Positions 19,008 through 26,821 of a stretch of 64,000 bases of DNA are shown piece after piece. Position numbers and translations under genes: made by a program. The stretch is taken from the NCBI RefSeq assembly GCF_025506355.1, contig NZ_JANZYP010000017.1:62001-126000 (forward strand), given 5' to 3'. The notes under the pieces were generated by a model. It made no database searches. It was not told where the DNA came from and saw only the letters and a program-made list of their open reading frames with translations. Position 1 is the stretch's first letter, and the number at the start of each line of letters is the position of its first letter. This DNA is from Sphaerisporangium corydalis (GTDB taxonomy: Bacteria > Actinomycetota > Actinomycetes > Streptosporangiales > Streptosporangiaceae).

Positions 19008-19171
19008 GCTCCCACGATGCCAGCCCGCCGGTGGCGGCACGGTGTCGGCGGCGGCCAGGCGGCGGCACGACCGGGTACGGGACGAGCCGATCAGCCCCAT
19101 CGCGTTTCACGGCGCGGGCGGGGGTAAGGGCAGTGTCCCACCGATCGGCCCCGCGACTGAGAGGACCCACC

Positions 19172-19645
19172 ATGGACGCCATCGTGTTGCTGAAGGACGA
19201 CCACAAGACCGTCGAGAAGCTGTTCAAGCAGTTCGAGGAGGCCGGCGAGACGGCGTACAAGAAGAAGCAGGAGATCGTCGCCAGGGTGATCGAGGAGCTG
19301 ACCACCCACACCTACATCGAGGAGCGGATCTTCTACCCCGCCGCCCGTGAGGGCGCCCCCGACACCACCGGCCACGTGCTGGAGAGCGTCGAGGAGCACC
19401 ACGTCGTCGTCTGGATGCTGTCGGAGCTCAAGGACCTGGACCCCAAGGACGAGCGGTACACCGCGAAGATGACCGTCCTGATGGAGAACGTCCGCCATCA
19501 CGTCGAGGAGGAGGAGAAGGAGTGGTTCCCGCAGGTGCGTGAGGCCATGGGACGCAAGCGGCTGCAGGAGCTCGGCGAGGAGATGGCCAAGGCCAAGGCC
19601 GAGGCGCCCTCCGACCCCCTGAAGATCCCCAGCGCCGCCGAGTAG
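19172..19645 (+). CDS. hemerythrin HHE domain protein
   Basis: A 157-residue four-helix protein that binds a diiron centre through histidines and acidic residues: LLKDDHKTVEKLF at the N-terminus, TTHTYIEERIFYP, EEHHVVVWMLSEL and NVRHHVEEEEKEWFP supply the usual ligands. Such proteins sense oxygen or nitric oxide or store oxygen or iron; which applies here is not visible. GAGAGGA precedes the ATG at 19172 by 7 bases. The gene stands alone, divergent from the response regulator gene and convergent with the permease operon. Confidence 0.93.
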   Translation: MDAIVLLKDDHKTVEKLFKQFEEAGETAYKKKQEIVARVIEELTTHTYIEERIFYPAAREGAPDTTGHVLESVEEHHVVVWMLSELKDLDPKDERYTAKMTVLMENVRHHVEEEEKEWFPQVREAMGRKRLQELGEEMAKAKAEAPSDPLKIPSAAE

Positions 19646-19713: not shown

Positions 19714-21090
19714 TCAGCGGCGGAGCGGCCGGAGGACGAGGTACACGACCGCCGAGATGAGGAACCCGACCTCGAACGCGATGTCGCCGACCGCCGGCAC
19801 CCGCTGGGGGACCAGCCCCACGTACTGCTGCTGGTTGGAGAACAGCCACACCGACAGCACGACGCCGGCGACCATGGCGATCGGACCGGCCCAGTTGGTG
19901 TGCCGCCTGTCGAACAGCAGGGCCTCCTCGACCCGGCCGCGGCGAAGGTACCAGTCGGTCAGCACGACGGCCAGCCACGGGCCGATCCAGTAGGAGATGA
20001 CCAGCAGGAACGACTCGTACTTGTGCCCGGCGTCCTCCAGCCCCGACAGCGCGACCAGGAACCCGACCACGCCGCACGCCACCGCCGTCAGCGCCCTGCG
20101 GAGCGTCAGCGGCAGCCGCACGCCCATCGTCAGCAGGGACATCGCCCCCGAGTACACGTTCACCGCGTTGGCCGAGATCGCGCCGAGAGCGATCGCCAGC
20201 AGGGTCAGCCCGGCCACGAAACCGGGCAGGTGCCCGGTGAACGCGCTGGTCGGCTGGCCGAGGGCGTCGCCGCCGATGGTCACCGACGCTGCGCCGACGA
20301 CCTCCAGGACCACGCAGGGGACGAACACCCCGAGCCCGGCGAACAGCCCGACGGCCCGCCTGCTCACGTCCGGCGGGAGGTAGCGGGTGTAGTCGGCCGC
20401 GTAGGGGTTCCAGCCGGCCGCGTAGCCGAACGTCGCGCCGACGGTCAGCAGGAAGCCGCCGAGCCCTCCGCCAGCGCCCGCGAAGCCCGGCCGCGCCTTG
20501 GACAGGATGATCACCGAGGCCACCACGAAGATCACCGCGAGGACCGGGAACGCGTACTTCTCGAAGGCCTGCACGAGGTTGTGCCCGAAGAACCCCAGGG
20601 CCACCATGATCGTGACCACGACCACCAGGCACAGCCAGGCCGGCAGGCCGGTGAGCGTGTTGAGCGCCAGCGCGCCGCTGACGCTGTTGACGGCGAACCA
20701 GCCGACCCCGGCGGCCACCGAGTTGAACGCGGAGGGGATCAGGTTGCCCCAGTACCCGAAGGAGAGCCGCCCGAGGACCATCTGCGGCACCCCGGCCGAC
20801 GGCCCCCGCGCCGACAGCACGCCGTGCGAGATCGCGCCGAGGCCGGTGCCGACCAGGACGCCCAGGGCCGCCTGCCAGAAGCTCAGGCCGAACGCGGCCA
20901 CCGCCAGCACGCCGAGGAAGATCGTGGCGAATTCCAGGTTGGGCGACATCCAGGTCCACAGGAGCTGCCGGGGGACGCCGTGGCGGTCGGACAGGGGGAT
21001 GAACTCGACGCCACCGGGCTCGACCGCGGTGACCTTCGCGCCGTACTCGCCTTCGCGTACCGCGACGCCGGGGGGTTGCATGACCTTCAT
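19714..21090 (-). CDS. NCS1-family cytosine/purine permease
   Basis: A 458-residue permease with about twelve membrane helices. The segments RQLLWTWMSPNLEFATIFLG, FGYWGNLIPSAFNSVAAGVG and AAGWNPYAADYTRYLPP match the NCS1 CodB/FurD group that imports nucleobases by sodium or proton symport. The ATG at 21090 overlaps the stop of the oxygenase gene by 4 bases; a second ATG at 21081 is possible. It ends the operon deaminase, oxygenase, permease, implying that the imported base is cytosine or a modified pyrimidine. Confidence 0.9.
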   Translation of the reverse strand: MKVMQPPGVAVREGEYGAKVTAVEPGGVEFIPLSDRHGVPRQLLWTWMSPNLEFATIFLGVLAVAAFGLSFWQAALGVLVGTGLGAISHGVLSARGPSAGVPQMVLGRLSFGYWGNLIPSAFNSVAAGVGWFAVNSVSGALALNTLTGLPAWLCLVVVVTIMVALGFFGHNLVQAFEKYAFPVLAVIFVVASVIILSKARPGFAGAGGGLGGFLLTVGATFGYAAGWNPYAADYTRYLPPDVSRRAVGLFAGLGVFVPCVVLEVVGAASVTIGGDALGQPTSAFTGHLPGFVAGLTLLAIALGAISANAVNVYSGAMSLLTMGVRLPLTLRRALTAVACGVVGFLVALSGLEDAGHKYESFLLVISYWIGPWLAVVLTDWYLRRGRVEEALLFDRRHTNWAGPIAMVAGVVLSVWLFSNQQQYVGLVPQRVPAVGDIAFEVGFLISAVVYLVLRPLRR

Positions 21091-22043
21091 ACGGTGATCG
21101 CCTTCAGCTTCTCGAGGAGGTAGTCGGACGCGACGACGGGCGGGTGGGCGACCCTGCCGACGGGCGGGGCGAGCGACTCCACCACGGTCAGCGGGTCGCA
21201 CTCGTAGAAGTAGATGAGCGACACGAGCTCCTCGTCCGGGGCCGAGGCGTCGGGCGGGAGCACCCGGTGCCGCGTGGACAGCCAGCGGTCGCCCGTCCAG
21301 CGGGCCAGCAGGTCGCCGATGTTGATCGTGAACGAGTCCGGCACGAAGGGGGCGTCGATCCACTCCCCGTCCAGGGTGAACACCTGCAGCCCGCCGACGC
21401 CCGGCTGCCGCTCCAGGATCGTGACGGTCCCGAAGTCGGTGTGCGGGCCGATGCGGAACTGGCCCGGCTCCGGCTCGCCCACCTGGCGCAGCGGCGGGTA
21501 GCGGTTGATGTTCATGGTGTACGACGGGTGCCCGGCCCGTGAGGTGAAGAAGTCCTCCGCGACGCCGAGCGCGGCGGCGCACACCGCCAGCAGCTCGCCG
21601 GCCAGCGCCCGCATGCGGGCGAGGTAGGCGGTGACCAGCGCTTCCAGCTCGGGGACCTCGGCCGGCCACACGTTGGGGAGGAACCACTCCGCGTCGATCG
21701 CGGGAACGCCGATCGGCAGGTCGGCGCCGGTCGCGAAGGTCTCCTTCAGGTCGGGCGGTGTGGGCGTGCCCTCGGCGTACCCGTTGGCCTCCACGCCCGG
21801 CGGCAGCCACCCCCGCTCGCCGACCGTGGCGGCGTACCGGGCCTTGGCCCCGGCCGGCAGGGCGAAGAAGCGTTTGGCCGCCGCGCGGACCTCGGCCCGC
21901 AGCTCCGCCGGGACGCCGTGCCCGGTGACGAGCAGGAAGCCGATCTCCCGCAGCGCCGTGTCGACCTGGGCGGCCACCCCGGCCCGGTCGGCGGGGCCGC
22001 CGCCGAACCACGGGGCCAGGTCCACGACCGGGACCGTCCTCAC
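21087..22043 (-). CDS. 2-oxoglutarate/Fe(II) oxygenase of the isopenicillin N synthase family
   Basis: A 318-residue oxygenase. N-terminal DIOX_N segment (PVVDLAPWFGGG, GFLLVTGHGVPAEL), metal ligands His and Asp in IGPHTDFGTVTIL and the distal His in LSTRHRVLPP. Length and layout fit IPNS-like dioxygenases, a group that includes fungal thymine 7-hydroxylase and xanthine-type dioxygenases. Lying between a cytosine deaminase and a nucleobase permease, both by 4-base overlaps, it may oxidise a pyrimidine or its methyl group; this is inference from context. The start is a GTG at 22043. Confidence 0.87.
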   Translation of the reverse strand: MRTVPVVDLAPWFGGGPADRAGVAAQVDTALREIGFLLVTGHGVPAELRAEVRAAAKRFFALPAGAKARYAATVGERGWLPPGVEANGYAEGTPTPPDLKETFATGADLPIGVPAIDAEWFLPNVWPAEVPELEALVTAYLARMRALAGELLAVCAAALGVAEDFFTSRAGHPSYTMNINRYPPLRQVGEPEPGQFRIGPHTDFGTVTILERQPGVGGLQVFTLDGEWIDAPFVPDSFTINIGDLLARWTGDRWLSTRHRVLPPDASAPDEELVSLIYFYECDPLTVVESLAPPVGRVAHPPVVASDYLLEKLKAITV

Positions 22044-22501
22044 GCGTCCTCCCCGATGTCCTCGTACCACAGGGCCGGATGGGCGGCGATGAACGCGGTC
22101 ATCAGTTCGACGCACTCCTCGTCGTCCAGGACGGTCACCGCCACGCCGTTGGCGGCGAGCCATTCGTGCTGGCCGGTGAAGGTGCGGCTCTCGCCGACGA
22201 CCAGGCCGGTGATGCCGAACTGGCGGATCAGGCCGCTGCAGTACCAGCACGGCGACAGGGTCGTCACCATGGTGGTGCCCCGGTAGGTGCGCTGGCGGCC
22301 CGCGTCGCGGAACGCCGCCGTCTCGCCGTGCACGGAGGGGTCGCCGTCCTGGACGCGGCGGTTGCGTCCCCGGCCGAGCAGCCGCCCGTCGGCCGCGAAC
22401 AGCGCGGCCCCGATCGGGACGCCGCCCTCGGCGTACCCCTTCCTGGCCTCCTCCAGCGCCACGCCGAGCATGGCGGCAGGGCTGGCAACGTAGCTGGTCA
22501 T
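22040..22501 (-). CDS. cytosine deaminase, fungal (Fcy1) type
   Basis: A 153-residue zinc deaminase. Zinc ligands are in SVHGETAAF and SPCWYCSGLI, with the glutamate of HGE as proton shuttle. The C-terminus HPALWYEDIGE is nearly the lid sequence of yeast cytosine deaminase, which separates it from tRNA adenosine deaminases and guanine deaminases. It would convert cytosine to uracil. The ATG at 22501 was chosen at the beginning of the conserved domain. It opens the pyrimidine operon and faces the PucR regulator across a 92-base region with operator-like repeats. Confidence 0.88.
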   Translation of the reverse strand: MTSYVASPAAMLGVALEEARKGYAEGGVPIGAALFAADGRLLGRGRNRRVQDGDPSVHGETAAFRDAGRQRTYRGTTMVTTLSPCWYCSGLIRQFGITGLVVGESRTFTGQHEWLAANGVAVTVLDDEECVELMTAFIAAHPALWYEDIGEDA

Positions 22502-22535: not shown

Positions 22536-22574
22536 ACGGACAGATCGTCCGTACTATGGCTACCTTCGACGGAC
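22536..22574. promoter_or_regulatory. operator-like repeats between deaminase and PucR genes
   Basis: ACGGAC (22536-22541) and GTCCGT (22547-22552) form a perfect inverted repeat with a 5-base spacer, and a third ACGGAC follows at 22569-22574. TACTAT (22552-22557) is a possible -10 for the PucR gene, and its complement could serve the deaminase operon. A palindrome TTACGTAA lies at 22576-22583. The divergent regulator gene next door is the obvious candidate to bind here. Confidence 0.5.

Positions 22575-24100: not shown

Positions 24101-26821
<2,721 letters not shown>

Follow-up and report, generated by a model that had tools for sequence, protein, structure and literature searches.

Cytosine uptake and deamination are encoded together in the codBA operon of Escherichia coli, which consists of genes for a cytosine permease and a cytosine deaminase; to our knowledge, it includes no oxygenase, and CodA is unrelated to the Fcy1-type deaminase of yeast. 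The yeast-type enzyme accepts 5-methylcytosine as well as cytosine. Among described Fe(II) oxygenases, thymine 7-hydroxylase (T7H) of N. crassa (structures 5c3p-5c3s) is the enzyme with which the present one was compared most closely. In another subfamily, the JmjC oxygenases, the C5-carboxylate of 2-oxoglutarate (2OG) is held by a lysine, namely Lys336 in JMJD5 (with His321 and Asp323), Lys214 in FIH, and Lys206 in KDM4A, as given in PMC9712658. Here, we describe a locus in the soil-type actinobacterium Sphaerisporangium corydalis (genome of 9.48 Mb, 9,479,577 bases, in 162 contigs) where an Fcy1-type cytosine deaminase (CDA), an oxygenase of the isopenicillin N synthase (IPNS) superfamily (OXY), and an NCS1-family permease are encoded in succession. 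The locus lies in a stretch of 64,000 nucleotides, hereafter called the window. It resembles codBA and yeast Fcy1 in combining a permease with a cytosine deaminase, which here is Fcy1-like.

In the sequences compared, the oxygenases with leucine at position 273, the place of the arginine in the RxS motif, form one clade, and all of them carry Arg212. This clade-wide loss of one arginine and gain of another suggests either that the 2OG-binding arginine was relocated or that another co-substrate is used. The gene set itself is a real, operon-like, conserved module of nucleobase type. It could well be a locally regulated operon that scavenges cytosine-type bases with an oxygenase whose 2OG-binding arginine has moved, a reading that we hold with even belief and doubt. 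In a search of the open-access literature, with subscription papers mostly outside its scope, no paper described this operon by title or abstract.

The features concerned are as follows.

22040-22501, minus strand: Fcy1-type CDA, first gene, ATG start, 153 amino acids, PF00383
21087-22043, minus strand: IPNS-superfamily Fe(II) oxygenase OXY, second gene, GTG start, 318 amino acids, PF14226 and PF03171
19714-21090, minus strand: NCS1-family nucleobase permease, third gene, ATG start, 458 amino acids, PF02133
22594-24099, plus strand: divergent PucR-type regulator, PF07905 and PF13556 (PucR N-terminal domain and HTH_30)
22536-22552, no strand: palindrome ACGGAC-N5-GTCCGT in the gap between pucR and the CDA gene, candidate PucR operator
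21225-21227, minus strand: codon of Leu273, which occupies the RxS arginine position (Arg286 in T7H)
21408-21410, minus strand: codon of Arg212, candidate 2OG-binding arginine, present in all 58 rows with Leu273

Leucine 273 and arginine 212 in the oxygenase clade

The tree was constructed with FastTree and rooted at the midpoint on 111 sequences. Thinning of the input at 85% identity reduced 188 rows to 106, that of the window among them, to which six solved structures were added; the poorly aligned row L232_181 was removed, and the structure 3oox was not included. The 58 rows with Leu273 formed a single clade with no other member (support 0.965). Since Leu273 was the criterion by which these 58 rows were selected, the independent facts are the single clade and the shared Arg212. 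At the RxS position, the 58 rows have LxS, while 52 of the 53 others have arginine, TraH being without that stretch in its printed segment. OXY is thus a divergent member of the IPNS-type superfamily, since its LxS departs from the RxS motif. Arg212 occurs in 58/58 rows with Leu273 as compared with 1/52 rows with the arginine (L224). Arg197 is also invariant in the clade; however, it is not coupled to the change, since it is common to 11/52 outgroup rows including T7H.

The placement of Leu273 was examined by spacing and by profile. The distance from the distal iron histidine to the RxS serine is 16 in 58/58 clade rows and in 15/52 outgroup rows, one of them the second oxygenase of Mycobacterium, and ranges from 11 to 17 in the others. 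Therefore, no gap is needed to align Leu273 against those 15 rows. In a profile alignment with ten sequences of the sister clade, Leu273 likewise fell on their RxS arginine. Arg212 is two residues past Leu210, which corresponds to T7H Leu223, a residue in contact with 2OG according to PMC4787775. If 2OG is the co-substrate, its C5-carboxylate would be held by a clade-specific basic residue, most likely Arg212, in the manner of the JmjC lysine. The proposed likeness to the JmjC oxygenases lies in the use of a basic residue outside RxS; in contrast, OXY has an IPNS-type fold and the proposed residue would be an arginine. If this holds, the coupled loss and gain would be a clean and testable case of a 2OG oxygenase rewiring the binding of its co-substrate.

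Conservation and proposed control of the gene set

The CDA stop and the OXY start overlap by four bases (GTGA, 22040-22043), as do the OXY stop and the NCS1 start (ATGA, 21087-21090), and the starts of pucR and the CDA gene are separated by 92 bases, with the genes facing each other. The initial annotation had described this order, the overlaps, and the facing PucR; its coordinates were exact and the Pfam families agree. Its assignment of the oxygenase to the IPNS family was likewise borne out by both Pfam domains (DIOX_N and 2OG-FeII_Oxy) and by the fold of an AlphaFold2 model (pLDDT 88.8, pTM 0.89), which is weaker at residues 81-100 (block means 66 and 62). Zero matches to the oxygenase were found in NCBIfam at 1e-3. 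The permease scored 132.3 bits against PF02133, above the cut-off of 23.5, and 135.5 bits against NCBIfam TIGR00800 (NCS1), below the curated cut-off of 353.1.

The deaminase had also been called fungal-type, and rightly so, since the best solved structures for it were those of yeast cytosine deaminase (Fcy1; E about 1e-34), with the top-ranking tRNA adenosine deaminase at 3.6e-10. The zinc site HxE...PCxxC and the cytosine-site residues are intact. Yeast positions 51, 62, 64, 88, 91, 94, 114, 152, and 155, which we take to have ligand roles, are unchanged in 73/73 oxygenase-linked and 19/19 other CDA rows, counts that include some repeat pulls of one place. Positions 54, 92, and 93 differ from yeast alike in linked and unlinked enzymes. 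Residues that would set linked CDAs apart from unlinked ones were also considered, and none was present at the compared positions.

The linkage was followed in two samples. In the scan of named genomes, the best 80 of 164 relatives were used, of which 62 were at least 50% identical to the window oxygenase and the other 18 about 36-40%. The nearest named relatives by oxygenase are those of Microbispora (82-83% identical) and Planotetraspora (77-79%). The criteria were a CDA on the same strand within 300 bp, an NCS1 permease at least 50% identical, and a divergent PucR at least 40% identical. The CDA was directly upstream on the same strand in 47/62 named loci; the permease was within 300 bp in 30/62 and anywhere in the fetched stretch in 39/62; a divergent PucR homologue was present in 10/62. 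The CDA-oxygenase pair is present in Microbispora, Planotetraspora, Nonomuraea, Actinomadura, Amycolatopsis, Nocardia, and Streptomyces, among other genera. Since the arrangement is found again in several actinobacterial genera, it is more than chance, and since the permease is upstream and not downstream in four loci (L081, L082, L084, L088), the linkage has outlived rearrangement.

The second sample consisted of 296 genomes drawn evenly from the class, where searches scored the best first-look candidates (seven per genome), so that counts may be low. An oxygenase orthologue was found in 31/296 (409-600 bits, the next score being about 222), and the CDA adjoined it in 15/31. A CDA anywhere in the genome was found in 19/31 genomes with the oxygenase versus 29/265 without it (Fisher p 1e-9, uncorrected for kinship). 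The fungal-type CDA itself is not rare, being present in 48/296.

The palindrome at 22536-22552 is proposed as a putative local PucR operator. Its pattern has no other perfect copy in the 9,479,577-base genome, and a control pattern had none. It is exact or near-exact in the aligned relatives that carry pucR, and exact in 12/260 loci examined, several of which are repeat pulls of one place. A scan of the window with two mismatches gave 4 matches versus 8.24 expected; therefore, only the perfect-match scan of the genome counts.

Gene order, conservation, residue changes, and the predicted fold are established directly. Building on these, we propose that the operon probably imports, deaminates, and oxidises cytosine-like DNA bases, the likeliest substrate being a cytosine-derived pyrimidine. 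The NCS1 permease would import the base; the CDA would convert cytosine to uracil, or 5-methylcytosine to thymine; OXY would oxidise that pyrimidine, most likely once it has been deaminated; and PucR may control the operon through the palindrome. A bacterial operon for uptake, deamination, and oxidation had been suggested before, and this suggestion holds as far as a conserved nucleobase module across genera is concerned, but not in the T7H identity of the oxidation step. If the scheme is true, pyrimidine scavenging in actinobacteria would include an oxidative pathway in addition to the reductive, barbiturate, and Rut routes, and this pathway may be suited to modified bases that come from decaying DNA.

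Observations of two kinds weigh against this scheme. The first kind concerns residues. L003 and L217, with RxS intact, carry an arginine at 213, and two other basic residues are specific to the clade and rival Arg212, namely Arg53 (58/58 vs 3/52) and Arg258 (57/58 vs 4/52). From the first iron histidine to Leu219, there are 18 residues in 58/58 clade rows and 17 in 40/52 outgroup rows, and since the clade has this extra residue before Leu219, the counterpart of Arg212 is uncertain by about one position. The orthologue of Mycobacterium yunnanensis (L090, 6001-6948) has HTN for the iron motif HTD, which its relative L091 keeps. Furthermore, the linked CDAs give no sign of a special substrate, since they are identical to the unlinked ones at the compared positions.

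The second kind concerns the linkage. No CDA is present in the fetched stretch of 15/62 named loci. In the class sample, 16/31 orthologues have no adjacent CDA and none of the 16 fetched loci shows one, while 12/31 oxygenase genomes have zero CDA match. Three of these 16 loci have NCS1 beside the oxygenase; neighbours were annotated for six of the other 13, where no base-related gene was seen among TetR, MFS, MarR, enoyl-CoA hydratase, polysaccharide deacetylase, and other genes. The gene caller assumed high GC, and genes were missed in L149-L151. Conversely, among CDA loci taken from the family to which the window belongs, 11/30 have the oxygenase alongside and 19/30 do not within the 3.4 kb examined. 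A Streptomyces plasmid copy with the Leu273/Arg212 signature adjoins only an MFS gene. Therefore, the linkage is strong within a sizeable portion of the clade but not found in the rest.

These varied neighbours of distant orthologues, together with the lost RxS arginine, are what would be expected if the oxygenase were merely co-transcribed, acting on a non-nucleobase substrate or having lost the use of 2OG. We regard this as rather unlikely, since the pairing with nucleobase transporters and deaminases recurs across several genera as well as within the sister clade.

Comparison with thymine 7-hydroxylase and other routes

The initial annotation had pointed out that fungal T7H is of the same superfamily as the oxygenase. 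In a Foldseek search with the OXY model, T7H was first, and in VIA-align it had a Z of 35.2 (root mean square deviation 2.1, 292 aligned residues), followed by SpoC with 34.8 and 3oox with 34.3. Since SpoC and 3oox score nearly alike, the structural lead of T7H means a tie. By sequence profile, the order was 9ovh (193 bits), 6jyv (161), T7H (158), TropC (155), and TraH (154).

For the residue comparison, positions in T7H were taken from PMC4787775 and placed on the printed chain with an offset of two; the numbering is secure, since all 15 residues matched the chain at that offset. The two enzymes share the fold and the iron facial triad, H201, D203, and H259 of OXY corresponding to H214, D216, and H271 of T7H. 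T7H Tyr194, Leu223, Val273, Ser288, and Phe292 are also retained, and the stretch Gln-x-Arg-x-Gly-x-His-Thr-Asp is present in both. T7H Tyr217 is replaced by Phe204 (the clade has Phe in 52/58 and Trp in 6/58), and Phe or Trp is allowed at this position according to PMC4787775. The aromatic sandwich around the base, Phe292 and Tyr217 in T7H, is thus present as Phe279 and Phe204; however, the Phe292 equivalent does not discriminate, since it is general in the outgroups too.

On the other hand, OXY is without both 2OG-binding arginines of T7H. Arg286, which binds the C5-carboxylate, is Leu273, and Arg190, which contacts 2OG C1 and the substrate, is Asn178 (N in 49, Q in 4, Y in 3, and T in 2 of the 58 clade rows), while Leu192 is replaced by Asn. 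Among the polar base contacts, Glu122 is Ala104, Asn294 is Glu281, and Asn87 falls in a gap, in a loosely aligned region. The mutation N294A had no effect in T7H, as stated in PMC4787775. In the phylogeny with T7H that had been proposed as a check, the OXY clade adjoins other actinobacterial oxygenases and is separate from the T7H branch; T7H groups with Pseudomonas-type sequences at a weakly supported node (0.76), and deep nodes of the FastTree tree are weak. T7H identity was therefore rejected on the replaced Arg190, Arg286, Leu192, Glu122, and Asn294 and on the tree, even though T7H tops the structural lists. Annotation of such oxygenases as thymine hydroxylases is tempting, and caution is needed.

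A bacterial T7H route, in which 5-methylcytosine would become thymine and then 5-hydroxymethyl-, 5-formyl-, and 5-carboxyuracil, agrees with the place of T7H at the head of both structural searches, with the retained iron ligands, Tyr194, Ser288, and Phe292 and the Phe at 217, and with the acceptance of 5-methylcytosine by the yeast-type deaminase. It is nevertheless improbable in view of the near-equal scores of SpoC and 3oox, the separate branch in the tree, and the replacement of Arg286, Glu122, and Asn294. The absence of an isoorotate decarboxylase match at E 1e-5 among the 5/7 above-cut-off PF04909 proteins of the genome that were compared by sequence with solved structures (two partial proteins, L165 and L166, being left out) also counts against it; the five matched other amidohydrolases.

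Oxidation of uracil to barbiturate, to be opened by a barbiturase-family enzyme encoded elsewhere in the genome, is another conceivable route. The genome has one PF09663 protein of that family (497 bits), and nothing scored above the curated cut-offs for RutA or D-hydantoinase. Nevertheless, PF09663 occurs in 4/31 genomes of the class sample with the oxygenase and in 62/265 without it, so no positive association is present in the 296 genomes, and the gene is on a different contig. We rejected this candidate and consider the route very improbable. The Rut and D-hydantoinase routes were set aside as well, on the lack of above-cut-off matches in the genome. By eye, the PF09663 gene (L199, 8008-10149) lies among aro-type genes beside a carbamate-kinase-like gene.

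Related oxygenase-deaminase modules and neighbouring genes

The nearest relatives of the OXY clade form a sister actinobacterial clade, labelled OXY2, with support of 1.0 at the joining node. It resembles the OXY clade in having a deaminase-family gene as neighbour in some loci; in contrast, it keeps the RxS arginine and has no Arg212. It is the more T7H-like bacterial group, since residues of the T7H Asn87 and Arg190 types are retained. The sister-clade oxygenase is directly beside a gene of the adenosine-deaminase family (A_deaminase) in 5/15 fetched loci (L245-L248, L253). The L245 locus also has an ABC importer near the oxygenase, with a binding protein of the NMT1/THI5 type.

Similar groupings are found further away. 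The Mycobacterium loci L090 and L091 have, in succession, NCS1 (30% identical), OXY, an A_deaminase-family gene, and the second oxygenase. A Rhodococcus qingshengii plasmid (L240, 6416-10630) has an NCS2 symporter, a sister-type oxygenase, an OXY-type oxygenase, and a VOC protein; the second of these oxygenases is 47% identical to OXY and carries the Leu273/Arg212 signature. This cassette is near genes for an organomercurial lyase and an IS110 transposase. Among the loci of oxygenases 36-40% identical, mostly from Pseudomonas, the A_deaminase sequence cluster is present in 16/18, and its Mycobacterium member belongs to PF00962. One annotated locus of this group (L099) has, in addition, an 8-oxoguanine deaminase and a Bmp-type ABC importer. 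These Pseudomonas-type oxygenases share with OXY a nucleobase-type gene cluster, as seen in L099, but have RxS intact, in a set of rows that includes several repeat pulls, and in L099 the importer is of the Bmp-type and not NCS1, with purine-type deaminases. On a Comamonadaceae plasmid, an oxygenase 34.5% identical to OXY is encoded together with an adenosine deaminase and an ABC importer. Therefore, the grouping of oxygenase, deaminase, and importer recurs, with the type of deaminase varying by clade. The plasmid contexts H1, H3, and H14 contained nothing pointing to bases.

One possible scheme would place OXY in a wider set of bacterial oxygenases wired to matching deaminases, for cytosine here and of adenine type in the sister clade, with the 2OG-binding arginine now at the end of strand III (Arg212) instead of on strand VIII (RxS) in the system for modified or plain cytosine; we put this forward tentatively, as more doubtful than not. 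Equally tentative is a scheme in which the oxygenase acts before the CDA, by oxidative dealkylation of a modified cytosine, such as a free base carrying a methyl group, with deamination of the released cytosine by the CDA, the sister oxygenase doing likewise for adenine. This order would explain why the oxygenase clades stand beside different deaminases (A_deaminase in 5/15 sister loci and in 16/18 loci at 36-40% identity), and two sister-clade loci (L257, L258) have a Rieske oxygenase gene ahead of the oxygenase. These Rieske ring-hydroxylating oxygenase genes, at 3733-4830 in L257 and 3399-4685 in L258, are directly upstream of the 2OG oxygenase.

The conserved neighbours in Amycolatopsis and Actinomadura (GGDEF, epoxide hydrolase, PurA-like, and BKACE genes) were considered as partners and set aside as lineage-wide gene order. 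In Nonomuraea, Planotetraspora, and Microbispora, no pathway clue was found in the flanks of the operon, which encode ATP-grasp, Alpha-E, transglutaminase, MR/MLE enolase, IclR, binding, RodZ-like, and radical SAM proteins. In the window, two neighbouring open reading frames were described by eye.

19112-19645, plus strand: convergent open reading frame resembling a hemerythrin HHE-domain protein, start unsettled
24101-26542, minus strand: large protein resembling a glycosidase in its N-terminal part, with a C-terminal repeat of ricin-B type

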